From assembly GCF_000170755.1 (NCBI RefSeq), contig NZ_ABCK01000006.1, positions 186,001 to 250,000 of the forward strand: a DNA stretch of 64,000 nucleotides, read 5' to 3'. The position numbers and the translations under genes were made by a program. Of this stretch, positions 8,061 to 42,375 are shown in pieces. The notes under the pieces are model-generated. The model saw nothing but the letters and a program-made list of their open reading frames with translations. It did no database searches and had not been told where the DNA came from. This DNA comes from Lentisphaera araneosa HTCC2155 (lineage in GTDB: Bacteria; Verrucomicrobiota; Lentisphaeria; Lentisphaerales; Lentisphaeraceae). Position 1 is the stretch's first letter, and each line of letters opens with the position of its first letter.

Positions 8061-8744
8061 ATGAATAAGGATAATGAAAGAGCCGAAGTTATTAAAGAGC
8101 TCATTGGGAGTTTTGCTTTGGAGTACTTTAATGAGGAAATCCTTAGTCTCTGCTGGCAGTTAACAAATATGCTCCACGAGGAGGATCTCATGGACCTCAA
8201 TCGTGGTAAGAAAGAAGTTTGGGCGGGGAGTATTATTTATGTGATAGCTCGAGTGAACTACCTCTTTGATAAGAGTAAGGATCATTTTATCGAGAGCAAA
8301 GATCTGGCCAATTATTTTAATGTTAGTTCGGCAACTCTGGGCAATAAAGCAAGTAAAATTATGGAAGAAAATGATATCTCCTGGCATGGTGGAGAATTTG
8401 CAGGTTTTGAAATTCAGCAAAGTTTCCCAATGGTCCTTGAAACAGAAGAGGGCTTTCTTATTCCAGTCTATCCCGATAGAGAAAATGAAGAAATACCCAT
8501 TTACCCGGAAGACAAAGGAGCGAAACTTTACTTCTCCAATCATTCGCCAAAGGGAGAACTTAGCCTACAGAAAATTCGCAATGAAGAACTGAGAGCTGAG
8601 GCCGAAAGAAAACAATTAAAAAAAGATGAAGCCAAACGCGCAAAGCAGGATGAGCGAGAAAGAAAGCAAGAAGAACGCGAAAGGGAACAAAAATTACAGC
8701 AAGAAGAATTCGATAGAATGAATCCCAGTCTTTTCGATTTTTAA
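8061..8744 (+). CDS. DUF6398 domain protein with charged C-terminal coiled coil
   Basis: 227 residues. Residues ~10-110 match the DUF6398 pattern: an N-terminal helix pair, then GKKEVWAGSIIYVIARVNYL and a helix-turn-helix-like end DLANYFNVSSATLGNKASKI. The fold resembles a cyclin-box/HTH module, which suggests nucleic-acid or protein binding, but no biochemical role is established. The C-terminal ~60 residues are an E/K/R-rich coiled coil. It is the last gene of the 4911-8744 unit. Translation start is the ATG 12 nt after the previous stop. Confidence 0.75.
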   Translation: MNKDNERAEVIKELIGSFALEYFNEEILSLCWQLTNMLHEEDLMDLNRGKKEVWAGSIIYVIARVNYLFDKSKDHFIESKDLANYFNVSSATLGNKASKIMEENDISWHGGEFAGFEIQQSFPMVLETEEGFLIPVYPDRENEEIPIYPEDKGAKLYFSNHSPKGELSLQKIRNEELRAEAERKQLKKDEAKRAKQDERERKQEEREREQKLQQEEFDRMNPSLFDF

Positions 8745-8848
8745 GATGTGTTTTTAAGTAAAAATTTACATATAAATTACATTTAATATCTATTTAGGTG
8801 ACTTTTATTTATTCTGTGGCTTGAAATTCATTTCTCCTGCCTTTATTA

Positions 8849-8857
8849 TGGTATAAT
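8849..8857 (+). promoter_or_regulatory. Extended -10 promoter element of the sugar operon
   Basis: TGGTATAAT fits the TGnTATAAT extended -10 consensus. It lies 18 nt before the ATG of the PfkB kinase, which would give a very short leader with the AAAGGAAC ribosome site. No good -35 hexamer is seen at 16-18 nt, as is common for extended -10 promoters. Confidence 0.45.
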
Positions 8858-8875
8858 TAATTTAAAGGAACTTAG

Positions 8876-9727
8876 ATGAAAACATTGTGTATTGGCGAAA
8901 TTTTGTGGGATGTATTTCCTGATAAAAAGGTCTGGGGTGGTGCACCTGCAAATTTCATTTTTCATACGGTGCAAATGGGCGCGGAAGCCGCTGCGTATTC
9001 CGCAGTTGGTGACGATGAATTGGGCAGGGAAATCACCCGAGCCATAAAAGACTGTGGCATCAATCTAAAGGCTCCTACTACAGATCATCCTACCGGCGTG
9101 GTAGATATCACTTTAAATAAAGATGGGAGTGCCAATTATCAATTCAATGCCGATTGTGCCTGGGATCACATAGCTCTTAGTTCGGAACTGATTAATTTAA
9201 GTTCCAATGCCGATCTAATTGCTTTTGGTAGCTTAGCTCAGCGCTCAGAGCAAAGTCGGCAGACAATTTACGAAGCTCTGCGTCACCGTAAGTCTTGTTG
9301 CAAGGTTCTTTTTGATATAAACCTCCGCCAAAACTTCTATTCTGAAGAAGTCATTCTAAAGTCTTTAAATGAATGCGACTTTCTCAAGCTCAATGAAGAA
9401 GAGCTGCCCATCATTTGCGACTTACTCAATATCGAAGAAGCAGAGCTTTCAGATAGCTTTAATCTGGAACTTATCATACTCACTTTAGGTGAAGAAGGGA
9501 GTACAATAATTTCGCAAAATGAAACGAGTATAATGTCGGCCAGCCCATGCGAACTCGTCGATACCGTCGGAGCTGGAGACTCGTTTACAGCTTGTTTCAT
9601 TATTAATTATTTGCAGGGTATGCCAATTAAAGATGCTCAAAAACAGGCTTCAGATATGGCAGCTTATGTTTGTAGTCATAGTGGAGCCACGGTTGAATTA
9701 CCAGCTAAGCTTAAACTCACTCCGTAG
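8876..9727 (+). CDS. PfkB-family carbohydrate kinase, probable fructokinase
   Basis: 283 residues. It begins with the family signature (KTLCIGEILWDVFPD), followed by GGAPANFIFH, which fits fructokinases with a sugar-binding N-terminus. The C-terminal PfkB signature DTVGAGDSFTACFI carries the catalytic Asp of the GAGD anion hole. It phosphorylates a sugar with ATP in the cytoplasm. Because an RbsBAC/FrcBAC-type uptake system follows and a GH32 fructan hydrolase lies at 21.3-25.3 kb, fructose is the best guess for the substrate. AAAGGAAC gives the ribosome site. A 105-nt gap separates it from the binding-protein gene. Confidence 0.85.
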   Translation: MKTLCIGEILWDVFPDKKVWGGAPANFIFHTVQMGAEAAAYSAVGDDELGREITRAIKDCGINLKAPTTDHPTGVVDITLNKDGSANYQFNADCAWDHIALSSELINLSSNADLIAFGSLAQRSEQSRQTIYEALRHRKSCCKVLFDINLRQNFYSEEVILKSLNECDFLKLNEEELPIICDLLNIEEAELSDSFNLELIILTLGEEGSTIISQNETSIMSASPCELVDTVGAGDSFTACFIINYLQGMPIKDAQKQASDMAAYVCSHSGATVELPAKLKLTP

Positions 9728-9832
9728 TTCTAAGTATTTTTTGTAAAATCAGTTACAAATAAGTAATAAACTAAATTCAGAGAATTTCATATATGGATAA
9801 TTCAGAAAGTAATCAATAAATAGGAGAAGTAA

Positions 9833-26570: not shown

Positions 26571-27665
26571 TTACTTAGAAGATTCTCTGATAATCAGTTC
26601 GCCGTGGAGCAAAACTTTTCTAGCCGTCATGCCGGGGTTTTGAATTCTGGACATCATGATTTCTACGGCAGTGGAGCCAATATCACGACAAGGCTGCCGA
26701 TAAGTCGTTAGCGGTGTCTTGAGAAGCTTGGCATATTTTACATCATCGAAAGAACAGATTTTGATATCATCCGGAATATTTATGCCGAGATCATTGAGAG
26801 CCATGCTGAGCTCAGCGGCGGCGGCATCATTGTAAACGGCGAGGGCATCAAAATCTTTGGGAGCAATAATCTTTGCGAGCTCCGCAATATCATCATCGAC
26901 CATGATTTCTTCGACAGAGTCGTGCGAGAGCTTGGCCTGAAGTATGGCTTCGCGCAAACCCATGAGTCGCATGTGAACGGTACTAGCGATATTAGGGCGA
27001 GTAATAAAGGCAATGGATTGACATTTGCGTTCAATCAAATGTGAACCGATAAGAAATCCGGCTTCAACATTATTGATACCAATTAGGTCGTATTCACTTT
27101 TTAGCGGAGCTTTGGCCACATCACGATCGAGAAGGATGACGGGGATATGAGCCTTTTTAAAGAGCTCGAGGATACGTGCGTTAACTTCGTCGGAGTCATC
27201 GTGCAGTTCCAGTGGCGTGAAAAAAACACCGTCGACTTCTTCCTGGACGTATTTATAAGCGAGTTTTTCTGCCACAGCAGTGCTATTATTGAGGCTTGAG
27301 CCGGCATTTCCCCACAGGAGGTTGAAGTTATGCGAGTCAGCCAGGCTGGCAATTTGCGCGCAGATGGGTTCAAAAATCTCTGTTTCGCCAAGAGAGGGAA
27401 TGAGTAAGCCAAGAGTAATCTGCTCATTACTACCGGCGGTTTGCGGTTTATTTTTCAGATATGTCCCAAAGCCAGCTTTTCGACCAAGAACATTTTCTTC
27501 GACGAGTCTTTGTACGGCTTTGGCAACAGTAGGGCGACTGGTACTGAATTTTTCTGAGATTTGCAGATCAGTGGGGAGCAGCTCGCCCATTTCATAGGTG
27601 CCTGCTTCGATTTCCTTCTTGAGGAACTCGTAGATTTCCTGTGTTTTGTTTTTTCGACTTTTCAT
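26571..27665 (-). CDS. GntR/LacI-type (AraR-like) transcriptional regulator, copy 1
   Basis: 364 residues. Residues ~8-70 are a GntR winged helix (IYEFLKKEIEAGTYEMGELL, LQISEKFSTSRPTVAKAVQ). The remainder is a LacI-type periplasmic-binding-protein effector domain (TLGLLIPSLGETEIFEP, DGVFFTPLELHDDSDEV, KICSFDDVKYAKLLKTPLTT). This architecture is that of AraR repressors, whose effector is a sugar. A near-identical paralogue is at 31417-32514. The two share the sequence in front of the start codon, which suggests common autoregulation. Neighbouring GH32 and GH127 genes make control of plant or algal glycan use likely. Confidence 0.9.
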   Translation of the reverse strand: MKSRKNKTQEIYEFLKKEIEAGTYEMGELLPTDLQISEKFSTSRPTVAKAVQRLVEENVLGRKAGFGTYLKNKPQTAGSNEQITLGLLIPSLGETEIFEPICAQIASLADSHNFNLLWGNAGSSLNNSTAVAEKLAYKYVQEEVDGVFFTPLELHDDSDEVNARILELFKKAHIPVILLDRDVAKAPLKSEYDLIGINNVEAGFLIGSHLIERKCQSIAFITRPNIASTVHMRLMGLREAILQAKLSHDSVEEIMVDDDIAELAKIIAPKDFDALAVYNDAAAAELSMALNDLGINIPDDIKICSFDDVKYAKLLKTPLTTYRQPCRDIGSTAVEIMMSRIQNPGMTARKVLLHGELIIRESSK

Positions 27666-27824: not shown

Positions 27825-28826
27825 ATGGCTCACAATCGTGTGAAAGAAAGTTGTTCGGATCAGGCAGTTTATTATCTTGTGACTAATCGCATTGCTGGTG
27901 GTCGCATGTTATTCAAAGATCTAGAAAAACATAAGCTCAAGGAACTGCTTTTTGCGGGCTCCGCTAAGCTCAGTTATCAGGTGATTGATTATGTTTTTAT
28001 GGATAATCATTTTCATTTGTTGATTAAGATCCCCCCTACTTCGAACATGGATGATGTGGAATTATTACAGCGTTATCGGCTTTATATGGATAATGAAGAA
28101 ATTGAATTTATTAATTCCGCTCAGAGGGATGATTTCAGGGAGAAGATCCATGATATTTCTTTTGTGATTGGCAATTTTGAACAGCGATTCGTTCAGTGGT
28201 TTAATCGAGAGCATCAGTCTTGGGGACGTCTCTTTGGTCAGCGTTTTGATTCAGAAATGATTGAGGTCTCGGCTCAATCTGATTCTTTGCTTCGAGTGAT
28301 GGCGTATATCTCATTGAATCCAGTTCGAGCCGGAATTGTTACTGACCCAAAAGATTTCTTTTTCTGTGGTTATGCTGATCGCCTCGCGGGTGGAAGTGTT
28401 GGAGATTCAGATCAAGACTTTTTTGATCTCTTTTGTCGTGGCATCAAGGCTGAGGACTACTGCCGTAGGGGCGGATATTTCTTTGCAGAAAATGAGAAGC
28501 AAAAGCATTTTAGGGAGGTTTTTAGAGCTTATATGCTTGGCTTGCGTCGTTATAAGAATGCTGATTCAAAAACTGTAGCAGAATATCTTCAGATAAAAAT
28601 GAACACGCCCCCGGAGGCTCTCCGGTGGGATGATTTGTTCATTCATAAGTGCAGATTCTTCACTAAATGTCTGGTCATCGGCTCTGAGGCTTTCGTTCGG
28701 GAGAAGTTGGCCAAGTTCTCAGAAAAGATGAAATGGAAACGAGTTCATGAGCCTTACACTGAGGATGAATGGAATGATATTTATTCCCTCAAGCCTAGGA
28801 AAAAAGCTCGAGCCGCACCCAATTAA
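27825..28826 (+). CDS. REP-associated tyrosine transposase (RAYT, IS200/IS605-like Y1)
   Basis: 333 residues. The Y1 HUH motif is HFHLLIKIP after VIDYVFMDN, and the nucleophile Tyr lies in the segment MAYISLNPVRAG. The segment QSWGRLFGQRFDSEMIE between them is typical of RAYT proteins. AAAGGAG lies 11 nt before the ATG. Members cut and join single-stranded DNA at hairpin (REP) sequences, and a hairpin-rich repeat array follows directly at 28962-29432. It is closest to stand-alone RAYT genes rather than to IS200 insertion sequences. The gene is intact. Confidence 0.85.
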   Translation: MAHNRVKESCSDQAVYYLVTNRIAGGRMLFKDLEKHKLKELLFAGSAKLSYQVIDYVFMDNHFHLLIKIPPTSNMDDVELLQRYRLYMDNEEIEFINSAQRDDFREKIHDISFVIGNFEQRFVQWFNREHQSWGRLFGQRFDSEMIEVSAQSDSLLRVMAYISLNPVRAGIVTDPKDFFFCGYADRLAGGSVGDSDQDFFDLFCRGIKAEDYCRRGGYFFAENEKQKHFREVFRAYMLGLRRYKNADSKTVAEYLQIKMNTPPEALRWDDLFIHKCRFFTKCLVIGSEAFVREKLAKFSEKMKWKRVHEPYTEDEWNDIYSLKPRKKARAAPN

Positions 28827-29461: not shown

Positions 29462-30721
29462 TTAATTAACGAATTTCTGAAACCATGCAGGTCGTCTTTG
29501 CGCCAATACTTCTAGATAGGTCTTTTCATTATATGGAGTTCTCGTTTTCCAGCAGCGATACATGATACGAATCCATTTGTAGGCCAAAGCTCTAAGTATA
29601 GTGAAATGAGGTATGTTAAGAGCTTTCTTATGATAATAAAATTCATGTGCCCATATTGACGATCTTATGGAATTATTTGCGAACTCCACAAAACTAAGTT
29701 GAGTGAACCTATCACATAAAAAACGTCTTCGGACAATATTCATTTTTCCACTCTGAATTGTCACAGGAGCTATTTCACTAATTTTAAGAACCTCATTTAC
29801 AGACTTAAATTTATCTCGATCGCCCCCAAAGAAAGCCATAAGACGTGGGCCGATACTAGGGCCTGCTCCTGGGAAAGATTGAAACATTTCATAGTCCTCA
29901 TTACTGCGATAAGCTTGCTCAATTTTTTCGTCATAAGCTTTAATGACCTTATTTAAACTCCTGATTCTGTGGCAGAATTGTTGTATCTCAAATATGTAGT
30001 AATCCAACTCATCTTCATCATTAACAACAATTATGGAGGAGCGTAATATTTGAACTCTCTCTTTTGTTTTACTATGCTTGGTACTGCGTTTGTTAAAGAA
30101 TTTGGTAATGCCGATTTGATGAGCATTAATGACATCCTGCGGGCTTGGATATTTATCTAAAAAGTCTAGAAACATATCTGCATATAAATGATTGCCCACG
30201 ACTTTGAGGGCGTTTGGGTAATAAATCTTCAATAACGCAGTTAATTGATTAGTTAAACGAGTTCTATCACCTACTAAATCACGCCTTTTTATATTAAGTC
30301 GCTTCAGTTTCCCCTTTGAAAAAGATGAGTCTACTTTTTGAACTTTATCAGGATGTTTTAAATACAGTTCAAGTAATGATTTAGTATCTGCTCGGTCACT
30401 TTTAGCACCACTCAAATGAAATGTTTTAGCAAACTTTGAAGCAGTCGTAGGATGAACCACATAGATATCAAACTCCGTGAATGATATTAATAAATTCATC
30501 AGTGCAGATTGGCAGCTCTCGATGACAATGGCAATGGAACCATTAACAGTTTCAAGTATGAGTGTATCAAAGAAGTTTTTGAGAGTAAGTAAATCACTAC
30601 TGATAACTTTACATTCTTCTTCACAATCCTTAAGAATTCGTAGGTCATGCTTTTGATCCGCCCAGTCGATCGCAATAATAACTTGATATTCAGATGGTTT
30701 TTTAGTTCTTGTATTATACAT
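29462..30721 (-). CDS. IS110-family recombinase (DEDD transposase)
   Basis: 419 residues from the ATG at 30721, which has AGGAG 6 nt upstream; the in-frame ATG at 30760 has none. The N-terminal RuvC-like DEDD domain shows the Asp of IIAIDWADQKHD, Glu of IVIESCQSALMN and the pair in GAKSDRADTKSLLE. A helical middle follows, then the Transposase_20 domain with FPGAGPSIGPRLMAFFGG. IS110 recombinases are guided by a bridge RNA made from the non-coding end of the element. The reading frame is complete, so the element may be active. Confidence 0.9.
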   Translation of the reverse strand: MYNTRTKKPSEYQVIIAIDWADQKHDLRILKDCEEECKVISSDLLTLKNFFDTLILETVNGSIAIVIESCQSALMNLLISFTEFDIYVVHPTTASKFAKTFHLSGAKSDRADTKSLLELYLKHPDKVQKVDSSFSKGKLKRLNIKRRDLVGDRTRLTNQLTALLKIYYPNALKVVGNHLYADMFLDFLDKYPSPQDVINAHQIGITKFFNKRSTKHSKTKERVQILRSSIIVVNDEDELDYYIFEIQQFCHRIRSLNKVIKAYDEKIEQAYRSNEDYEMFQSFPGAGPSIGPRLMAFFGGDRDKFKSVNEVLKISEIAPVTIQSGKMNIVRRRFLCDRFTQLSFVEFANNSIRSSIWAHEFYYHKKALNIPHFTILRALAYKWIRIMYRCWKTRTPYNEKTYLEVLAQRRPAWFQKFVN

Positions 30722-30789
30722 TTTTACTCCTAGGGAATATATAGATTTAAAAAACAGCATGCGAAATTCCTATAGCATTTGTGGTGGAA

Positions 30790-31416: not shown

Positions 31417-32514
31417 TTACTTCGACGACTCGCGGATAATGAGCTCCCCGTGAAGTAAGACTTTCCTTGCGGAGAGGCTCGGGTTTTTGATGCGAGAAAT
31501 CATGATTTCTACTGCTGTGGCGCCAATATCACGACAAGGTTGACGGTAAGTCGTTAGGGGAGTTTTAAGCAGTTTTGCATATTTTACATCATCAAAAGCA
31601 CAGATTTTAATATCTTGAGGGATATTCACCCCAAGCTGATCGAGGGCAATGCTGAGCTCAGCTGCGGCAGCATCGTTATAAATAGCTAAGGCATCAAATC
31701 TTTTTTCTGAGCTAATTTGGCGAGCGAGATTATCAATATCCTCTTCCACAATGAGTTCTTCGACTGAGTCATGAGGTAGGCCTGCTTGGAGGATGGCTTC
31801 ACGCAAACCCATGAGTCGCATGTGAACAGTGCTCGCTATATGGGGACGAGTGATAAAGGCAATGGATCGACATTTTTTTTCGACGAGGTGTGAGCCAATG
31901 AGGTAGCCAGCTTCAATATTGTTGATGCCAATGAGGTCGTATTCACTTTTGAGTGGAGCTTGGACGACGTCACGATCAAGTAAGGTGACGGGGATATGGG
32001 CATTTTTGAAGAGCTCAAGAATGCGTGCGTTTATGACTTCAGAATCTTGGTGTAACTCGATAGGCGTGAAAAATACACCATCAACAGCTTCCTTGATGTA
32101 TTTATGAGCGAGTTGCTCAGCTGCGGCAGCACTTTTATCTAAGCTCGAACCCGTGTTGCCCCAAAGGAGGTTGAAATTATAAGAGTCGGCTAAACTAGCA
32201 ATTTGACCACATATAGGTTCAAAAATTTCCGTTTCACCCAAGGAAGGGATCAGTAGGCCCAAGGTGATTTTGTCATCACTGCCACCAACTTGTGGTTTGT
32301 TTTTTAGGTAAGTGCCAAAGCCAGCTTTTCGAGCCAAGACGTTTTCATCAACCAGCCTTTGTACGGCTTTGGCCACTGTGGGGCGACTCGTTTTGAATTT
32401 TTCTGATATTTGCAAATCCGTGGGCAGTAATTCACCCATTTCATAAGCACCGGATTCGATTTCCTGTTTGAGGAATTCGTAAATTTCTTGAGTTTTATTT
32501 TTTCGACTTTTCAT
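31417..32514 (-). CDS. GntR/LacI-type (AraR-like) transcriptional regulator, copy 2
   Basis: 365 residues, aligned from end to end with the regulator at 26571 with mostly conservative changes and one extra residue (EKRF near 255). GntR winged helix at ~8-70 (LQISEKFKTSRPTVAKAVQ), LacI-like sugar-binding domain after it (DGVFFTPIELHQDSEVI, KICAFDDVKYAKLL). It follows the GH127 gene on the same strand, separated by a terminator. The AraR-like layout plus an arabinofuranosidase neighbour makes an L-arabinose-type effector plausible. Same upstream palindrome box as copy 1. Confidence 0.9.
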   Translation of the reverse strand: MKSRKNKTQEIYEFLKQEIESGAYEMGELLPTDLQISEKFKTSRPTVAKAVQRLVDENVLARKAGFGTYLKNKPQVGGSDDKITLGLLIPSLGETEIFEPICGQIASLADSYNFNLLWGNTGSSLDKSAAAAEQLAHKYIKEAVDGVFFTPIELHQDSEVINARILELFKNAHIPVTLLDRDVVQAPLKSEYDLIGINNIEAGYLIGSHLVEKKCRSIAFITRPHIASTVHMRLMGLREAILQAGLPHDSVEELIVEEDIDNLARQISSEKRFDALAIYNDAAAAELSIALDQLGVNIPQDIKICAFDDVKYAKLLKTPLTTYRQPCRDIGATAVEIMISRIKNPSLSARKVLLHGELIIRESSK

Positions 32515-32742: not shown

Positions 32743-35142
32743 TTAGTCGTTCATGAGATCCAAGTCGAGGAGGCCAAGGGCTTTGCCGGCTTGAGCTTTG
32801 ATCTTGAGTTTGATGCCTTCGCAATGAAGGGCAGCAGCAGGGTGCACCACCACATACATATTGAGATCCGTGCCGAAGAAATCGGTAACGTAGCGCTCGA
32901 AAGGCAACCACTGACCCTCTTTTTTGTATTCCATTGTCCAAGATTCTGGAGCGGCAATCGAATCCATTTCCGCCCAGTAGACGCCGACGGACTCAATTTT
33001 TTGTGTTCCAGAGAAGTTGAACTCAATTTCTTGATCTTGTCCTTCTTGTCCCATGGAAGACCATTTTGGTAGGCTGCGATCACTTGCCGATTGCGGACGG
33101 CGACCATCACGGAGTGCTTCGATTGTATCACAATTAGCGGTATGAGTCGCGGTGATTTCACCGTAGTGCTCACTGCTAAACTGCATGGAATCGAGAGATT
33201 TTTGTGCGAGCGATTCAATATTTGGGAACCAAACATTCATCGAGCAGTTGCCACGGTTATTCCAAGCAAAATAGGGGATGAGCTTCATAGAACTTTCGCC
33301 CTTGCCAATTTCTTTACAGGGAACGGTGAGAATGGGCATGCCTGCGAGGTTACCCTCTTGGATAGTTTCTTGCTCAAAGTTACCGACTTCTTTTTCGAGG
33401 AAGAAGCGCTGGACAGCACCCTCATTATCGACTTCTTCAGCAGCGAGGACGAGTGGGCCACGTGTGAGGGCAATTCTTCCCACATTTGCATCGACGCGAG
33501 TATCGCAAACCGAGCTCATGATAGGCATTGGCAAATCGAGTTCAACGACATCGCCTTTTGACCAAGTGCGTCGAATAGAAGCAAAACCACGATCGAGTGT
33601 GCACTGAACGGCAGCACCATTGATTTTTACGGTCCAGTTCTCGTTAGGTTTCGAAATATATTTGTAGAGTGCGCCTGGAAGGAAGTTGTCGCGAGCCCAA
33701 GAAGGGATACGCAATTTAAAAGTGAATTCTGAATCTTCGTCCATGTCGAGGTCAAATTTAACTTTACCTTCGAAGGGGTACTCAGTTTCTTGTTTGAGGC
33801 TCACTTTACCGTTGGCTAAATCAAGGCTCACATCTGATCCCGCATAGAGGAGTGAGAAAATTTCATCTTCACTCGTTGCGTACATGTAGCCACTAACCTG
33901 CGGCATGAGACGGGCAATATTTGAAGGGCAGCAAGCGCAGTCAAACCAGTGTGAACGACCGGCGTTACCATGGTTAAAAAGGCGTTGGCCATCAGCTTCC
34001 AGCGGATTCACGTAGAAGAATTTGTCGCCTTCCATATTTACGCCTGCAAGGGAGTTATTGAGGAGAGAGACTTCGGCAACGTCGAAGTAAGAAGCATCTC
34101 TATGAAGCAAGAACATGCGGTAGTTGAAAAAGACATTTGCGATTGCCGCACAAGTTTCGTTATAAGCTTCTTTGTTCGGCAAATCAAAATCATCGCCAAA
34201 ACCTTCGATCCCGTGAATAGCACCGAGTCCACCCGTGATATGCATTTTCATATCTACGAGGTTGTGCCAGATCTTGTTGAGAGCATTGGTGTAATCGTGG
34301 CGATCCTGCAACATGTCAACTTCGGCCATAGAAGCATACATATAGGCGGCACGAACGGCGTGACCTACGGCGCTATCTTGATCCGTGAGGGCGACGTGCT
34401 GCTGAGCGTAGTCAGGAGCATTAACGCCATCGCCATCGGGAATAAAAGTGACGCCGCGAATTTCGAGGAAATGTTTAGCGAGTTCGAGATAGACTTTGTT
34501 ACCAGTAACCATATAGAGTTTACAGAGGCCGAGTTCGATTTCCTGATGACCAGGAGCCTGATTGACCGGCTTACCATCGTTATAGTTGGGATCGCCTTCC
34601 ACAAAAACTTTGTAGACGTGTTGAGCTGATTTTTCAGCAACTTTAAGCCAAGCATTTTTACCAGTTGCTTGGTAGTATGCGACGGCACCTTCGTAGAGGT
34701 GGCCCACATTGTAGAGTTCGTGGGAGTGAATCACAAAGCTGTAGGGCTTAGTACCCATTTCATCCACATTAAATGTATCGGTAATGTGATTGACGTAGAG
34801 GTAGCCATCGTCCTGCTGAGCACCGGCAATGATGTCGATAATTTCATCGATTTGAGCTTCGAGTTCGGCATCGCGATTGAGCATGAGTAGGAAAGCAGCG
34901 CCTTCCATAACCTTGTAGAGGTCAGAAGAAACGAAGCGGTGAGTGAAAGGCTTTTCGTCGGGAATGCCCTTGAGGAAGTTAGCGCAACGCTTGAGGTTAG
35001 CGACGGCGTGTTCAGTTTTGTGGAGGGCAAAGGGAAGAGTCGTTTTTTTCTGAGTCTCTAATCTAGGCAACCAAAAGCTATCATTGAGTTTTACTTGGTT
35101 AAAAGTAATCGGGTTAATTTCTTTATGTTTTACTATAGGCAT
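32743..35142 (-). CDS. GH127-like (DUF1680) beta-L-arabinofuranosidase
   Basis: 799 residues from the ATG at 35142; its Shine-Dalgarno GGAG lies within the end of the permease gene, whereas the in-frame ATG at 35166 lies deep inside that gene. The (alpha/alpha)6 domain carries LNDSFWLPRLETQKKT, AYNETCAAIANVFFNYRMF and FDCACCPSNIARLMPQV; the Glu in the ETCA segment and the Cys pair in CACCPSN are the GH127 zinc/nucleophile region. Beta-sandwich domains follow (VARIALTRGPLVLA-like segment near 610; F5/8-like C-terminus). No signal peptide, so it acts in the cytoplasm on imported oligosaccharides. Family firm, arabinose specificity by analogy. Confidence 0.87.
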   Translation of the reverse strand: MPIVKHKEINPITFNQVKLNDSFWLPRLETQKKTTLPFALHKTEHAVANLKRCANFLKGIPDEKPFTHRFVSSDLYKVMEGAAFLLMLNRDAELEAQIDEIIDIIAGAQQDDGYLYVNHITDTFNVDEMGTKPYSFVIHSHELYNVGHLYEGAVAYYQATGKNAWLKVAEKSAQHVYKVFVEGDPNYNDGKPVNQAPGHQEIELGLCKLYMVTGNKVYLELAKHFLEIRGVTFIPDGDGVNAPDYAQQHVALTDQDSAVGHAVRAAYMYASMAEVDMLQDRHDYTNALNKIWHNLVDMKMHITGGLGAIHGIEGFGDDFDLPNKEAYNETCAAIANVFFNYRMFLLHRDASYFDVAEVSLLNNSLAGVNMEGDKFFYVNPLEADGQRLFNHGNAGRSHWFDCACCPSNIARLMPQVSGYMYATSEDEIFSLLYAGSDVSLDLANGKVSLKQETEYPFEGKVKFDLDMDEDSEFTFKLRIPSWARDNFLPGALYKYISKPNENWTVKINGAAVQCTLDRGFASIRRTWSKGDVVELDLPMPIMSSVCDTRVDANVGRIALTRGPLVLAAEEVDNEGAVQRFFLEKEVGNFEQETIQEGNLAGMPILTVPCKEIGKGESSMKLIPYFAWNNRGNCSMNVWFPNIESLAQKSLDSMQFSSEHYGEITATHTANCDTIEALRDGRRPQSASDRSLPKWSSMGQEGQDQEIEFNFSGTQKIESVGVYWAEMDSIAAPESWTMEYKKEGQWLPFERYVTDFFGTDLNMYVVVHPAAALHCEGIKLKIKAQAGKALGLLDLDLMND

Positions 35143-35143
35143 A

Positions 35144-36949
35144 TTATTTCTCCGTTGGAACGACAATTCCTTTTATAATTAAATTCTGACAAAAAATGAA
35201 AATGAGTAGGGTGGGGACCGCAGCGACTAAGAGTGAGGCAAAAACCACTCCTTGCGATGAAAATTGTTGGAGTTGGTAGAGCCAGACCATGAGGGTCCAC
35301 ATTTCGCGGTCTTGGCAAAGAATGAAGGCAAACATGAAGTTCGAATAAGCGCCGTTGAAGGCTCCGAGTGCGATTACCGCAAGAATCGGTTTCGAGAGGT
35401 TCATGGTAATCATCCAAAATTTATTCCACTCACTCGCCCCATCGATATCGGCGGCTTCATAGAGTTCCCGAGGCAAGGAATCAAAGAAGCCCTTGAGCAG
35501 GAAGATCGAATAACCATTCGCCATGGAAGGTAATAAGAGGGCGGCAAAAGTATTGAGAAGCCCAAGATCACGTAGGAGCAGGAAGTTGGGGATCATGGTG
35601 ACCACTGCCGGGAAAGCCATGGTGGCAATGAGGAAGAGCAAGATTTTGAACTGACTCTGAAGCTTGTAGCGCGAGAGTGCGTAAGCTGCAATTGGATTCA
35701 CCAAGAGTGAAAGCACGATCGAGAGCAGACAATAAACCACCGTGTTAGAAAGGCCTTTACCATAGAGCAAGACGTATTCGAAAACCATCGTGAAGTTACG
35801 TGTGAGGAAATTTGATTTCACATCGGATTTATTTTTAATCACCATAGCATAATCAAACTCTTTTTGCGGCATGCGAACTTCTTGTATTGAGGAAAAATCA
35901 CGATCATGAGCGGCGTTGATTTTTTCTAAGGAGCCATACTTTTTGATCAAGAATTCTTGCCAGGTGAATTCTGGTGTGGTCAAGGAAATGAACTCAGCGG
36001 GAGAATTCTTCTTGTCAGAAATAAAGAGCATGTAATCAGTAACTTGCGGGCTGGAGTAGATTCTATCTGTTGGCAAAGGGACCTCATCAAATGATTCATA
36101 AGTCGTGTTGTAGAGTTTGTTGAGGAACTCGACTTTTTGATATTTTTGAACGAGGAATTTATTCCAGTGACTTAAACCATCGGAGGAAAAGTTAACGAAT
36201 TGGGGATGCAAGATCGTGCGCACCCAACGCTCCATACTCGGAGAAGTGATTTTTTTCTTGAGGACTTCGGCTTCGGCACCAGTTTGTTTGAGGAACTTGC
36301 TATAAGCACCCATGGCGGACATAAAAATGCGATCTTCACTCTTGATTTTTGACTTAAACTCATAGAAATTCTTAAATAATTCAGTTCGATTGAGTAAGAA
36401 GGTTCGATCCAAGAGACGCTCAGACTGAAACTTTAGAAAAAACCAGTTTTCTAGTGGCTCGCCAAAACGCGTGCTGAATTCAGTTAAATCATTATTACAG
36501 ACTTCTTTGATATAATTGCGGAATTCGCGTTCATTGCGCTGAATGATTTTGCCATCGCCCGTGGGACCATAGCCAATGACGAACCAAGAGAGTGGGAGGT
36601 TAGTTTGATTAAACTCGATCCAGTCAGTAACTAAAGCAGGTTTATGAGCAGTTGGCATCTCGATATTTCTGAAGTTAAAAACTTGATCACCATTGCTCTG
36701 AAGATAGAGCTGAAGGTTTTCGTTGTATTTAGATTCGATCTGCTTGCGGAAGAGCATTGATTCATCGTGCAGATAAGTGGGAACAATATTGAATTCGTTT
36801 TCATCGATACGACTTTTCATTGAGCCTGATACCATGAGTAGGAAGGGGTAGACCATGGAAAGAGCGCCAACGGCAAGTATTAAATACATGCAAGCGTAAA
36901 GAATTCGGATAGAGAAGTTTTTCTTCTCGGTAAGTAGGATAATACTCAT
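35144..36949 (-). CDS. ABC sugar permease (MalG-like) with ~340-residue periplasmic insertion
   Basis: 601 residues, about twice the usual MalG length. Membrane segment 1 lies at ~17-41 (LYACMYLILAVGALSMVYP). Residues ~45-385 are soluble and should lie outside the inner membrane. The ordinary permease core follows (GLSNTVVYCLLSIVLSLLV) with EAA motif LYEAADIDGASEWNKFW. The insertion holds two copies of a W-x-x-FL-x-KY-x-x-x-E-x-x-N repeat followed by S-[FI]-x-EV-x-[LM]-P (near ~255 and ~320). Start ATG overlaps the upstream stop as TAATG. It forms a heterodimer with the 36949-39417 protein. Confidence 0.85.
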   Translation of the reverse strand: MSIILLTEKKNFSIRILYACMYLILAVGALSMVYPFLLMVSGSMKSRIDENEFNIVPTYLHDESMLFRKQIESKYNENLQLYLQSNGDQVFNFRNIEMPTAHKPALVTDWIEFNQTNLPLSWFVIGYGPTGDGKIIQRNEREFRNYIKEVCNNDLTEFSTRFGEPLENWFFLKFQSERLLDRTFLLNRTELFKNFYEFKSKIKSEDRIFMSAMGAYSKFLKQTGAEAEVLKKKITSPSMERWVRTILHPQFVNFSSDGLSHWNKFLVQKYQKVEFLNKLYNTTYESFDEVPLPTDRIYSSPQVTDYMLFISDKKNSPAEFISLTTPEFTWQEFLIKKYGSLEKINAAHDRDFSSIQEVRMPQKEFDYAMVIKNKSDVKSNFLTRNFTMVFEYVLLYGKGLSNTVVYCLLSIVLSLLVNPIAAYALSRYKLQSQFKILLFLIATMAFPAVVTMIPNFLLLRDLGLLNTFAALLLPSMANGYSIFLLKGFFDSLPRELYEAADIDGASEWNKFWMITMNLSKPILAVIALGAFNGAYSNFMFAFILCQDREMWTLMVWLYQLQQFSSQGVVFASLLVAAVPTLLIFIFCQNLIIKGIVVPTEK

Positions 36950-39417
36950 TAGTCGTTATCTCCTGCAGTAAAGCTCATATTAGAAATGCGTTTCATTTGG
37001 AACATGGTGAGGCCGATGAGTAGGAAGCCAAGTATCCATGCCATAGCAATGGCAGTTCCGAATTTAAGGTAAACGTAAGCATTATAGAAAATTTCTAAGC
37101 CGATGACGTTTGTTGCGTCGCCAGGACCACCACCAGTCATTACCAAGACATTATCTGCCGATTGGAATGAGCCAATGAGTACAAAGATTAATTGAATCAG
37201 TACTAGTGGGCGAATAGTGGGGATAGTCACATACCAAATGCGTTTGAAAAATCCTGCACCGTCAATTGCTGTGGCTTCATAGAGGTCTTCGGGTACAGTT
37301 TTTAATGCAGCTAAGTAGATCAGTGAGCCAGGACCAATTCCTGCCCAAGCAACTGGGAGTAAGATCGAGATCATTGCCAAAGAGCTATCTTGCAACCATT
37401 TTTGTGGGCCGATGCCAATGATATCGAGTACTTGGTTGAACATACCGCTGGAGCTCGGTTCGAAGAACATTTTCCACATGAGCATTACAACGAGGCCAGA
37501 GACAACTGCCGGCAAATAGTAAACGATACGGAAGAAAATTTTACCTTGAGGGATCTCGGAGAGGATGAGTGCAAGTACAATTGGTGAGAGGAAAACGAGG
37601 ATCAGTGACCAAAAGACATACTCAAAAGTTCTCAGCATAGAGATCCAAAAAGTGGAGTCAAACAAGATGGCGGCAAAGTTATCTACGCCAACAAAATCTG
37701 AACCGCCAGCACCTGCAATGACATTGTAGTCGAGGAAGGCCATATAAGAACCATAAATCAGTGGGTAGTAATTGAAGATTGCGATGGTTCCAATGGCTGG
37801 TGTGAGCAAGAGGTAAGCGGGTAAGTTTTTGGTCCACTTGGTTTTTTTGGCATATTCATTTTTTGGTGGAGTGAAAATTTTCCAGATATAGATAAACATG
37901 GCAATGAAGCCTATAGCAATGGTAATAATGACTGCGAGAGCGACTTTTCGACGGAATTCCATAGTTTCCTCAGGAACGTAACCGAGCATTTTTTCGTTCG
38001 TTTCAACCACGGCTTTATCGTAGAGCACCTGGAGCTTTTTGAGGCGTACTTCTTTGTCTTGAATACGGGGAATCTCGGCAGTGAGTGCAGCTTCGAGGGG
38101 TTTAGAGGCACGTAAGATGAAGACCTGGCAGTTTTTGCCATAGGGTTCAGGGTAAGAGTCCTCTAGACTCTGCTTGAGTGTGGCAGCCCATTGTTTTGGT
38201 ACCGTGTGAAGGTACTCGGTGTAGCCAAATTCTTTGAGTTTTTCGGGATTGATGTAGGAGCCGTAACCATTTTCGATATAGACGCGAACAATTTCTTTTT
38301 GAGCTTCAGCAGAACCAGCGAAACGGATGAAGCGCCAGGTAGCTAAGAGTTTTTCCTTAGGCGTCGTAGCACAGATACCTAGACCACGAACGTGAAGTTC
38401 AGTCGTTTTCTCACCAGAAGGAGCAGTGGGGATGGGTACAATTCCGAGTTCTTCCGGGTTGAGTGCCGAGAGGTTGGTGTCGGCATTGATGAGTAGGTCA
38501 TTGATGTAGAGAAAAACCATGCCCACACGACCTTTATTCCATAGTGGCCAAGCTGCTTCGGTACGACCAACGCCATAGAGCTCTTCACCCTTGTCGTTTT
38601 TCCAAGCACCATCCACGAGTTGGAGGTAGAAATCGGCAGCTTCAACCGCACCTTTGTCGTTAAAAGTGGCACGCCATTCGCCAGACTCTTTATCGCGTTC
38701 AATGAATTTTGAACCATTGGCGTAAAAGAGGGGAAGAGCAATCCATGAAGCTCCACCAGAAGTATCCACGAGCATGCCGTAAGAATTGTTTTCTGGTTTG
38801 TGGAGTTTTTTGGCAGTTGTGAGCATCTCGTCCCAAGTTTTTGGGTATCCATTTTCAGGATCGAGACCATTTTCGAGGAAGAGGTTTTTTGAGTAAGCTA
38901 AAGCGCGAGCCCAATAAGAATAAGGTAGGAAATAAAAGTGCTTTTTGCCATCGGGTCCAACGCGGTAGACGGCGTCTTTTGCCTGACCCTTAACTCGTTC
39001 GTTGAATTCATCTTTGTACATGATGTCTTCATTAAAGATCCCTTGAGCTTTCGCTTCTTCTTCAGTGATCTCGATATTGATGAATTGATCGAGAGGAGTG
39101 AGGAATTCACGTTGGACAAACGAACCTGACTGACGGCCATTGACAGCAAAAACATCAGGAGCAGTTTCACCTGCAATGGACATGAGTAAGGGAGCCTCTC
39201 CAGCCGCACCCTCGAACTTGAGTCCCATGGGATTGCCCTCGGGAACAATATTGGGATACTTTTTACGAAAAGCGTGGTAGACTGCGAGGTTTGCTTTGCC
39301 TTCAATACTGAAAGCCGAGTCGGGTGCAGGAGCGAAGTCCGTGGTTTTGAAATGGATTTTCTCCTCTGCGGACAGCGCAAAAAGCAGTGCGAAAAGTATG
39401 GAGGCTAAGCGCTTCAA
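36949..39417 (-). CDS. Fusion of extracellular sugar-binding protein and ABC permease (MalF-like)
   Basis: 822 residues. The start codon is TTG at 39417, immediately after the upstream TAA, with AAGGAC as ribosome site. Residues 1-17 are a signal sequence. Residues ~20-450 are an SBP_bac_1 binding domain (MSIAGETAPDVFAVNGRQSG, YPKTWDEMLTTAKKL, ATWRFIRFAGSAEAQKEI). From ~485 there is a membrane segment, then a MalF-type permease (LPAYLLLTPAIGTIAIFNYY; EAA loop LYEATAIDGAGFFKRIW). Binding protein and channel are thus one chain. No ATPase gene is in the operon, so a shared MsmK-type ATPase is needed. The frame is continuous through the junction. Confidence 0.87.
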   Translation of the reverse strand: MKRLASILFALLFALSAEEKIHFKTTDFAPAPDSAFSIEGKANLAVYHAFRKKYPNIVPEGNPMGLKFEGAAGEAPLLMSIAGETAPDVFAVNGRQSGSFVQREFLTPLDQFINIEITEEEAKAQGIFNEDIMYKDEFNERVKGQAKDAVYRVGPDGKKHFYFLPYSYWARALAYSKNLFLENGLDPENGYPKTWDEMLTTAKKLHKPENNSYGMLVDTSGGASWIALPLFYANGSKFIERDKESGEWRATFNDKGAVEAADFYLQLVDGAWKNDKGEELYGVGRTEAAWPLWNKGRVGMVFLYINDLLINADTNLSALNPEELGIVPIPTAPSGEKTTELHVRGLGICATTPKEKLLATWRFIRFAGSAEAQKEIVRVYIENGYGSYINPEKLKEFGYTEYLHTVPKQWAATLKQSLEDSYPEPYGKNCQVFILRASKPLEAALTAEIPRIQDKEVRLKKLQVLYDKAVVETNEKMLGYVPEETMEFRRKVALAVIITIAIGFIAMFIYIWKIFTPPKNEYAKKTKWTKNLPAYLLLTPAIGTIAIFNYYPLIYGSYMAFLDYNVIAGAGGSDFVGVDNFAAILFDSTFWISMLRTFEYVFWSLILVFLSPIVLALILSEIPQGKIFFRIVYYLPAVVSGLVVMLMWKMFFEPSSSGMFNQVLDIIGIGPQKWLQDSSLAMISILLPVAWAGIGPGSLIYLAALKTVPEDLYEATAIDGAGFFKRIWYVTIPTIRPLVLIQLIFVLIGSFQSADNVLVMTGGGPGDATNVIGLEIFYNAYVYLKFGTAIAMAWILGFLLIGLTMFQMKRISNMSFTAGDND

Positions 39418-42375
39418 TTATTTGTCCTTGCGAAAGAATTGTTTGAGTTCAACTTCCTGCATTTCACTTCCATCAACGGAGTACATGATCTCTAAAGACT
39501 TATTGATTTTGTATTGGAAGTAATCGATTTGAATCGGGTGGAGACCCGCTTTGAGTGGGATACTACCTTTCGATTCCCAAGGGTCACGATCCGAGAGGAT
39601 ATTGAGCTCGACAATTTGCTGACCAGCAATTGTGAGGCGTGAGCCATCATCACTCTTGAGGTTAAAAGTATAGAGACCCGTTTTAGGGACTTTGATGTAA
39701 CCGAAGAGCTGCATGCCGAATTCATCGTGCATTTTAGCGACTTTGTGGGGCTCAATAACTTGAGTGGACCCTTGAGCGGAAGCCGTGAGTTTTTCGAACT
39801 CAGGGATGCGTCGGAAAGAGCCTTTAAAGATCTTGTAGTCGAGTCCTTGAGCCACTTTGGTACTTACCGGTTCTACAGCTTCTTGACGCTCGAATTCGAG
39901 AGTTGACGTTTCGTAAGCTTTACCCCATTTGTCCCAAGCACGCATCTTGAGCTGACAAGTTTTGTCGAGTGTGAGTGGCTTAGTATAGATAGGTGAGCTC
40001 TCGTTAGGAACTGAACCATCGAGTGTGTAGCGCAAAGTTGTTTCTTGGTTGAGGTTCTGAAGTGTGATTTCCATGGGGCGGTAGAACTTGCGATCAACAG
40101 GAGAAACCGTGACGAACGTTTTTGGTGTCTTGGCTTTCTTGCCGAGTTTTACTGAAACTTTACCCTGTGATGTTTGAAGCTTTTGGCGCGTTGTGTAAGT
40201 CTCGCGAGAATCAGTCCACGCTTTGATGTCGAGTTTAGCGAGGGGATTGTTTTTTACCTCAATATTTTTAGTGAGTCCATCTTTAGTGTGCATTTGGTCA
40301 ACTTTGACGTGAACCCAAGTGGTTTTTCCATCTTTAGTGACAGGAATATAAGTCTCGAGCCAATCCCAGTTTTCTGGGAGGTGTTCCGTCACAGTGAAAG
40401 TATTAGTCTTCAATGAGAAGTCGATACCCGCAATACGTTTGATCAGAAGGTCAACAATTGGCACATCCCAGTTGTAGTAGAGTGAACCCCAAGGGCCGAA
40501 TTTTTCTGGTTCCCAGCATTCTGGTGCCACAGGGAAACCGTGAGTTTTGTTCATGCCATTGATGTGACTGAGAGTGGCAAATACACCTTCGCGACCACGG
40601 TTGTGACGGAAGAGACCTTCTGTGGCTAACCAAGTTGAGATCGAAGATACAGTGAAAACACCATTGGGGGGATCTGTCATGGGACGAATGAGGAAAGAAA
40701 CAGGACCGAGGAAACCATCTTCAGGATTCATAACCCAACGTTCAGTCATAGCGTCAGCCCATTCCTGAGGCATTTCGCGATTCATGAGTGAGATGATATT
40801 CCAGATATCTTTCCAAGGTGCGCCTTTCGCTGCGTAAAAAGAGGGTGCGTAAGCTTCCCAATGCTGGGACCAGTTTTTGTACATTCTTGGATGCATGGCT
40901 TCCCAATGCTTGACGTCTTCGTCCATACCAAGTTCTTTGGCCATTTTGATGAGGTCAGCAAGAGCATTGAGTTCTTCGCCCATGGAAGCTTGAGGACCAG
41001 CGTGATCCCAGTAGAGTGGCTTCCAAAGTTCAGTGTAGAGTTCTTTGAGGAATTTTTTGTCGCCTGATTTACGGTACATATCCCAAGAGAATTCAACTGA
41101 ACCCACGAGGTTCATCCAAACTTCTGGCGAGTACCAAGTAGTACCAAAGTTATCGGGGAGGCCGTTAGCTTTATTTTTGAAAGGAACCATGTGCTTCCAA
41201 GAGAGAACATTGCCGTAACCCCATTTCCACTTGTCGACTGTCCAAGCGCCAACGGCAGTGTAAGCCCATGAATCCCAAAGGTGAAGACCCATGAAATTGT
41301 TGATTGCCGTTTGTGTGTGTGGGTACTCTTCAAAACCTTCGCCGATGTCAGTGTAGTACATGAAGTAAAGTGCCCAGAGGTAGTAGTAAGTCTTTACAGC
41401 AGTCTTATCTGAAGCGTCGAAATAAGGGATCTGATTATTGAGGATATCGTTAAAGTAAGTGAATTTATTGTTGAGAGCTTTTGCGGGATCCGCAAGAAGT
41501 TTTTTGCTATTGTCGAGAGCAACTGAGTATTTGTCGTCTTGAGCGTAAGTAAGAGTTTCGCTTTTGCCCGCGTTGATATTGATAGTGAAAGTATAAACTT
41601 GACGACCCTTATTATCTCTGGTGAGTTTAACGCTATCGCCAAATGAAGCTGTTGAACTAAGCGCAATGCTCATGCCATCATACATGATTTTGCCCACTTT
41701 AGTTTCTTTCCAACCAGACTTAGTAAGAGTTGTTCCACCCTCGCTTACGTGGATGGTGTTGCTGCCTTTATCGTAGCGACTTGTCGCCGTTTGTGACTGA
41801 GTAAATTTTTGACCGGCAGCATCGCCATCCCAAGTGGGGAATTCGGCATCATTAACAAAGCTATAGCCTGTAAACTCAATCTGAATGTCTTTATCCGAGC
41901 TAATGATTGTGGCGAGAACATCATTGTTATCAATGAACTTCACTTCTGTAATATTAGCACCACCCACTTGGTAGACGCATGTGACGCGATCCGGACGCCA
42001 GAGCATTTTGAGTGGTTTGGGGCGTTTGAAGCGTTTGCCATCAATAATGACTGTGCCCTCAGCGCCTTTTACATGATTCCAGAATTCCCAACCGAATTTA
42101 TCGTGTCCCTTGCCACCTTGACCTTCGACGATGCCGTAACCACGAGCGCGACCATCGCGAAACATGGGGTGAGTGAAGCCAATTGTTTCGGAGTGCACTG
42201 GCTTCCAGTACTCATCGACTTTACCGCCGATGTAATACATTTTGTTGCCAGCCATAAAGGAATAGAGTTTATCTTGAATATCACGTTCGATCAAAGCGCA
42301 AAAGTCTTTGTGGGGTTTTTCAGCAAAGAGGTTGATGCTGAGGAAAAAGGTGAGGACGGATAAAAATGTTTTCAT
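39418..42375 (-). CDS. Large secreted glycosidase-like protein with PA14 domain
   Basis: 985 residues, signal peptide 1-18 (FLSVLTFFLSINLFA). About residues 25-300 are a beta-sandwich. About 310-690 form an (alpha/alpha)6-barrel like GH63/GH37-type enzymes (LHLWDSWAYTAVGAWTVDKW, MGEELNALADLIKMAKELGM, MNPEDGFLGPVSFLIRPMTD). Then come a chitobiase C-terminal-like beta domain (~765-840, LRYTLDGSVPNESSPIYTK) and a PA14 domain (~845-985, FGYIKVPKTGLYTFNLKSDDG). CAZy family not settled. It is the first gene of the transporter-GH127 operon and should release the oligosaccharides that the operon imports. AGGAG precedes the ATG. Confidence 0.8.
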   Translation of the reverse strand: MKTFLSVLTFFLSINLFAEKPHKDFCALIERDIQDKLYSFMAGNKMYYIGGKVDEYWKPVHSETIGFTHPMFRDGRARGYGIVEGQGGKGHDKFGWEFWNHVKGAEGTVIIDGKRFKRPKPLKMLWRPDRVTCVYQVGGANITEVKFIDNNDVLATIISSDKDIQIEFTGYSFVNDAEFPTWDGDAAGQKFTQSQTATSRYDKGSNTIHVSEGGTTLTKSGWKETKVGKIMYDGMSIALSSTASFGDSVKLTRDNKGRQVYTFTININAGKSETLTYAQDDKYSVALDNSKKLLADPAKALNNKFTYFNDILNNQIPYFDASDKTAVKTYYYLWALYFMYYTDIGEGFEEYPHTQTAINNFMGLHLWDSWAYTAVGAWTVDKWKWGYGNVLSWKHMVPFKNKANGLPDNFGTTWYSPEVWMNLVGSVEFSWDMYRKSGDKKFLKELYTELWKPLYWDHAGPQASMGEELNALADLIKMAKELGMDEDVKHWEAMHPRMYKNWSQHWEAYAPSFYAAKGAPWKDIWNIISLMNREMPQEWADAMTERWVMNPEDGFLGPVSFLIRPMTDPPNGVFTVSSISTWLATEGLFRHNRGREGVFATLSHINGMNKTHGFPVAPECWEPEKFGPWGSLYYNWDVPIVDLLIKRIAGIDFSLKTNTFTVTEHLPENWDWLETYIPVTKDGKTTWVHVKVDQMHTKDGLTKNIEVKNNPLAKLDIKAWTDSRETYTTRQKLQTSQGKVSVKLGKKAKTPKTFVTVSPVDRKFYRPMEITLQNLNQETTLRYTLDGSVPNESSPIYTKPLTLDKTCQLKMRAWDKWGKAYETSTLEFERQEAVEPVSTKVAQGLDYKIFKGSFRRIPEFEKLTASAQGSTQVIEPHKVAKMHDEFGMQLFGYIKVPKTGLYTFNLKSDDGSRLTIAGQQIVELNILSDRDPWESKGSIPLKAGLHPIQIDYFQYKINKSLEIMYSVDGSEMQEVELKQFFRKDK

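Follow-up and report, generated by a model that had tools for sequence, protein, structure and literature searches.

The window, a stretch of 64,000 nucleotides from Lentisphaera araneosa HTCC2155 (positions 186,001 to 250,000 of contig NZ_ABCK01000006.1), carries on its minus strand a gene for a MalG-type permease with a periplasmic repeat array and, immediately upstream, a gene for a fusion of binding protein and MalF-type permease (Table 1). The two genes are interlocked; in the TAATG at 36951-36947 the ATG of the permease and the stop codon of its partner have one base in common. On the other side, the ATG of a GH127 gene lies one base past the stop codon of the permease and belongs to the same operon, and a GntR/LacI-type regulator ends the gene set. 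Directly upstream of the partner is a 985-aa protein with Fn3-associated and PA14 domains. Its large N-terminal part has no match in Pfam, in NCBIfam or, by sequence, among solved structures, and the protein is a probable glycan-active enzyme not assigned to a family.

Table 1. Features of the transporter locus. Positions are those of the window, except for the MalK-type ATPase, which lies on contig C5 (locus L168).
Feature	Position	Strand	Basis
GntR/LacI-type regulator, end of gene set	31417..32514	-	Pfam
GH127 beta-L-arabinofuranosidase	32743..35142	-	Pfam, sequence
MalG-type permease with periplasmic repeat array, 601 aa	35144..36949	-	ORF, Pfam, structure alignment
MalG-type core with EAA motif, residues 399-594	35168..35755	-	sequence, Pfam
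Periplasmic insertion, residues 44-385, five-unit array	35795..36820	-	profile, AlphaFold2
Unit 5, residues 326-373	35831..35974	-	profile, model
Unit 4, residues 256-323, Pfam Glyco_hydro_42 match	35981..36184	-	Pfam, profile, model
Unit 3, shortened, residues 212-254	36188..36316	-	AlphaFold2 model, sequence
Unit 2, residues 138-209	36323..36538	-	profile 143-201; helices and strand in model
Unit 1, residues 63-125	36575..36763	-	profile 67-116; helices 63-74, 79-86, 104-114, strand 123-125
TM1, approx. residues 17-41	36827..36901	-	AlphaFold2 helix 12-41; alignment to MalG N-terminus
Partner: binding protein fused to MalF-type permease	36949..39417	-	Pfam, PDB sequence matches
985-aa protein with Fn3-associated and PA14 domains, directly upstream of partner	39418..42375	-	Pfam
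MalK-type ATPase with OB_MalK domain	about 8643-9765	-	sole such in window genome

Results

A MalG-type permease and its fused partner

The membrane part of the permease has the features of type I (CUT1/MalFG-type) importers, a BPD_transp_1 match above the Pfam cut-off (residues 436-587, 4.7e-14), an EAA motif (EAADIDGA, residues 498-505) and a MalG-like membrane fold. Its best solved relatives in a phmmer search of the PDB are AlgM2 (2e-18) and MalG (1e-15), with SugB also found, and the model of the whole permease aligns with MalG (3puv_G; Z 19.3, rmsd 4.0 over 262 residues) and with AlgM2 (4tqv_B; Z 18.8) in VIA-align. MalG of the E. coli MalFGK2 complex, AlgM2 and SugB share with it the core fold, the EAA motif and the loop position; in contrast to MalG, its P1 loop is enlarged to 342 residues of repeats.

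In the partner, the binding protein (approximately residues 20-470) is followed by an anchor helix and the MalF-type permease (approximately 485-822). This permease part aligns with the short proteins SugA and AlgM1, whereas its alignment to MalF begins past the P2 domain of the latter; therefore, the domain that usually holds MalE is absent from the partner. Unlike the MalF of MalFGK2, the partner is fused to its binding protein and lacks a P2 insertion. The remaining type I component is also present, such that the genome encodes a MalK-type ATPase along with the partner permease and the binding protein, and by sequence the window permease, its fused partner and the MalK encoded elsewhere form a predicted type I sugar importer. 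The genome has one MalK with an OB_MalK domain (C5:48868), away from the transporter genes, with no permease or binding protein near it in locus L168. Since this sole OB_MalK ATPase stands alone, it is probably common to several importers. Given that the binding domain of the partner resembles the arabino-oligosaccharide-binding protein 6rjy (E 2e-10) and that the operon encodes GH127, the cargo of the importer is likely an arabino-oligosaccharide.

Farther along the window, a regulator gene at 26571-27665 is very similar to that at 31417-32514, about 4 kb apart from it, and transposase-like genes (27825-28826 and 29462-30760) lie between the two. The two similar GntR/LacI genes suggest a regulator duplication.

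The insertion is an ordered array of five units

The 342 residues lie between TM1 and TM2, at the P1 position of MalG, and by homology to MalG this loop is predicted to be periplasmic. The AlphaFold2 model of the insertion alone (66 sequences in the alignment) has a mean pLDDT of 94.9 and a pTM of 0.91, and depicts a rigid, ordered arm of five tandem helical modules. The units are about 70 residues each and run, in the model, in the order helix A, helix B, helix C and short strand. Their profile, with the consensus FRKYLEAKYNGDIEALNRAYGTDYASFDEVPLPQEEPPANGALVADWEEFLRG, yields 416 matches in 85 homologous inserts and zero in ten residue-shuffles of each of these inserts. In the window permease, a profile built without the three Lentisphaera-type sequences finds four copies, at residues 67-116, 143-201, 262-312 and 330-373 (i-Evalues 5e-6 to 4e-15, Z=1), and a fifth, shortened unit at 212-254 is visible in the AlphaFold2 model. 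This third unit keeps helix A, helix C and the strand, and is missing helix B and its loop; according to the unit profile it is full-length in most homologues. The last helix of unit 5 runs, in the model, directly into the helix leading to TM2. Foldseek returned for the isolated insert no match with E < 0.001 and none spanning its full length; no known array fold was recognised, and single units alone match.

A sequence-only reading of the gene had described a MalG-like permease with a long periplasmic insertion, which holds, and had seen in the insertion two copies of a W-x-x-FL-x-KY...N...EV-x-P pattern. Both copies are real (the matches at 262-312 and 330-373); the count was too low, as they are the last two of five. 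That reading had also named disorder of the insertion, or its general occurrence among MalG relatives, as outcomes that would speak against it. The predicted fold is ordered, and related genomes contain short MalGs, of about 280-300 residues, without the insertion.

The units are related to a helical module of glycosidases

Searched against the PDB, the unit profile matches GH42 9ta3 (E 9e-8), the Ignavibacterium beta-1,2-glucosyltransferase (6e-7), 6ptm (1e-5), GH14 3voc (4e-5), GH50 4bq4 (1e-4) and GH167 9whd (0.001). Likewise, VIA-align places the insert on residues 185-255 of 5gsm with an rmsd of 1.8 over 67 residues and Z 7.7; the glycosidase matches all have Z < 8, a level that can mean a common arrangement only. 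Structure comparison also aligns the insert with residues 300-371 of 6ptm (rmsd 1.6 over 64), 159-237 of GH42 5dfa (3.6 over 72) and 189-264 of GH14 1b90, the matches overall spanning an rmsd of 1.6-3.6 Å over 60-75 residues. Because sequence profile and structure choose identical residues, we regard the units as homologous to the glycosidase modules. The earlier remark that the helices of the insertion resemble those near the sugar site of glycosidases is thereby borne out, for GH42, GH50, GH14 and GH167.

Pfam detects Glyco_hydro_42 in 64 of the 66 inserts tested. In the window protein the match lies above the cut-off and covers profile positions 148-215 of 376 only; what is found there is the helical module that follows the acid/base residue of GH42 enzymes, and the catalytic TIM barrel of GH42, with its acid/base and nucleophile glutamates, is absent from the model of the insert, a helical array. 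GH42 beta-galactosidases, GH50, GH14, GH167 and archaeal GlmA share helix A, helix B, the loop and helix C with the units. The glycosidases, however, have one copy of the module within a catalytic barrel, whereas the arrays have about five in tandem and no barrel. The loop differs as well. In BiBga42A, Trp-200 and Phe-221 at the tips of the long helices complete the sugar pocket of the neighbouring subunit (PMC10688820). The unit profile match in BiBga42A begins at residue 177; with the offset of the 9ta3 alignment (FWS), Trp-200 then corresponds to the loop position that follows Y24 in the unit. Tryptophan occupies this position in none of 411 units, and the GH42-type loop insertion is absent in all 411, such that the Trp-200-type loop of the GH42 module is missing from the array. 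Judged by these sequences, the array appears to retain the scaffold of the module and not its sugar-touching tip.

Long ORFs with one copy of the unit are common in 59 genomes of the phylum, and every ORF there with at least two copies is a permease of the array family. Of eight single-copy carriers checked, seven score above the Pfam GH42 cut-off (one of them barely), including one that is a GH50 agarase by PDB match; the eighth has no Pfam match. Two proteins of the window genome with one unit copy each, of 685 and 698 aa (L118 and L119, contigs C7 and C2), are probably GH50-like; Pfam barely recognises the one that was tested.

The array is probably old and accompanies the fusion

About 80 homologues of the array permease were found, spread over several phyla, in records labelled Lentisphaerota, Kiritimatiellota, Verrucomicrobiota, Planctomycetota, Armatimonadota, Cloacimonadota and others. 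Viral contigs were scanned as well and contain no relative. Five units are present in 60-63 of 85 arrays, depending on the threshold, with a range of 2-8. When units are compared between proteins, 84% of the best matches fall on the same ordinal, and the mean score is 83 against same-ordinal units and 26 against other units within the same protein. Since units match the same ordinal across proteins, the array was most likely built once, long ago, and then kept. A recent origin from a GH42 gene of the window genome was rejected, because GH42 hits in this genome are partial only and the units are conserved by ordinal across phyla.

The genome collection yielded 79 homologous loci, 70 of which could be judged for an upstream partner. 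In 67 of these 70, the fusion of binding protein and MalF stands immediately upstream on the same strand; of the other three, one has the fusion split between frames (L080) and two have no partner nearby (L064 and L103). Conversely, the MalGs near fusions are ORFs of at least 553 aa unless cut by the end of the stretch examined, and some fusions have no MalG within that stretch. Nine unfused MalF/MalG pairs in related genomes have MalGs without units, mostly of 281-311 aa.

Some loci deviate in arrangement. In some genomes, as in L172 (7450-17910) and L175 (2306-11640), array permease and fusion gene do not adjoin but are 4-6 kb apart. In the window genome, a second fusion is split over two frames just upstream of another array permease (L009, 2-2255, contig C4), which may be an assembly error or an inactivated gene.

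In five loci (L160-L164) the fusion is followed by a MalG of 554-614 aa with a different insert between TM1 and TM2, as in the 594-aa ORF on the minus strand of L160. These inserts have no repeat units, the two tested have no Pfam match, and they are beta-rich in appearance. From sequence, they look like another type of P1 insertion, one that goes with the same kind of fusion as the array does.

Discussion

We propose that a glycosidase-related module has been multiplied into a rigid P1 arm of a sugar importer, to which the tethered binding domain docks, a reading that we hold to be somewhat more likely than not. The arm would stand beside the tethered binding domain and would dock or orient it over the translocation pore, thereby taking over the work that MalF-P2 and MalG-P1 perform for free MalE in E. 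coli. Given that the arm is almost confined to fusion loci, it probably holds the binding domain in place. Three further observations favour docking. The partner MalF has no P2. The enlarged loop is the P1 loop of MalG, for which contact with MalE has been reported (Daus 2007, a reference of PMC3150292). Finally, the array co-diverges with the binding domain although the latter is on the other chain. With both membrane domains controlled for, the partial rank correlation between array and binding domain divergence is 0.51 in a first estimate (permutation p 0.002), compared with 0.11 between array and MalF core (0.11-0.19 across the estimates), and it is 0.43-0.65 when the controls are variable columns of matching divergence; such co-divergence can reflect shared specificity or residual phylogeny instead of contact. 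The sequence-only reading had rightly placed a fused binding domain in the partner protein, and had left the segment a choice between contacting that domain and recognising oligosaccharides directly. The co-divergence and the P1 position favour the former; direct recognition through a GH42-type tryptophan does not agree with its absence from all 411 units.

Docking is thus the most likely role and glycan capture its main rival. The array could be a glycan-binding arm that works on the transporter as a carbohydrate-binding module does, capturing oligosaccharides and handing them to the binding domain. The related glycosidase modules adjoin the sugar site, as illustrated by the sugar contacts of BiBga42A, the co-divergence of array and binding domain would fit a shared specificity, and unit position 27 is aromatic (F, W or Y) in 88%. 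Yet the tryptophan-bearing loop of GH42 is gone, and the residues conserved among units are mostly common to the enzymes and look like helix packing; we consider glycan capture rather unlikely. Repeat arrays often act as spacers, and the arm might be a scaffold that spans the envelope, distancing the transporter from another envelope component or anchoring it there, with no part for the binding domain. A copy number from 2-3 to 8 is in keeping with a spacer. However, most members have exactly five units, each conserved by its position in the array, the linkage to the fusion is strong, and the array co-diverges with the binding domain, which makes this role improbable. A glycosidase domain, whether catalytic or degraded, might be suggested by the Pfam score above cut-off; this reading of the array can practically be dismissed, since the match is confined to a helical excursion of the enzyme and the model has no barrel. 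Since a stable arm that can be separated from the transporter is predicted, docking and glycan capture can be directly tested against each other.

Binding domains tethered to a membrane subunit are likewise described for GlnPQ and OpuA (PMC8025302, PMC11065425). Those are amino acid and betaine importers, whereas the window fusion joins the binding domain N-terminally to a MalF-type sugar permease and, unlike them, is paired with a MalG arm. The chances seem to us evenly balanced that these transporters constitute a distinct importer class, present in at least six phyla, in which a MalF-fused binding protein is clamped by a P1 arm made of a glycosidase module amplified about five-fold, with L160-L164 as a sister group carrying an unrelated insert at that loop position. 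Among the papers searched, mostly from the open literature, we found no description of this domain pairing, of MalG insertions or of Lentisphaerae fusions.

The arm suggests that a sugar importer has a second way, besides MalF-P2, to hold its binding protein, and tandem duplication has apparently turned a piece of an enzyme fold into a structural element of a transporter. A practical consequence is an annotation trap; domain searches label many permeases from these phyla as beta-galactosidase because their arm carries the glycosidase-related module.
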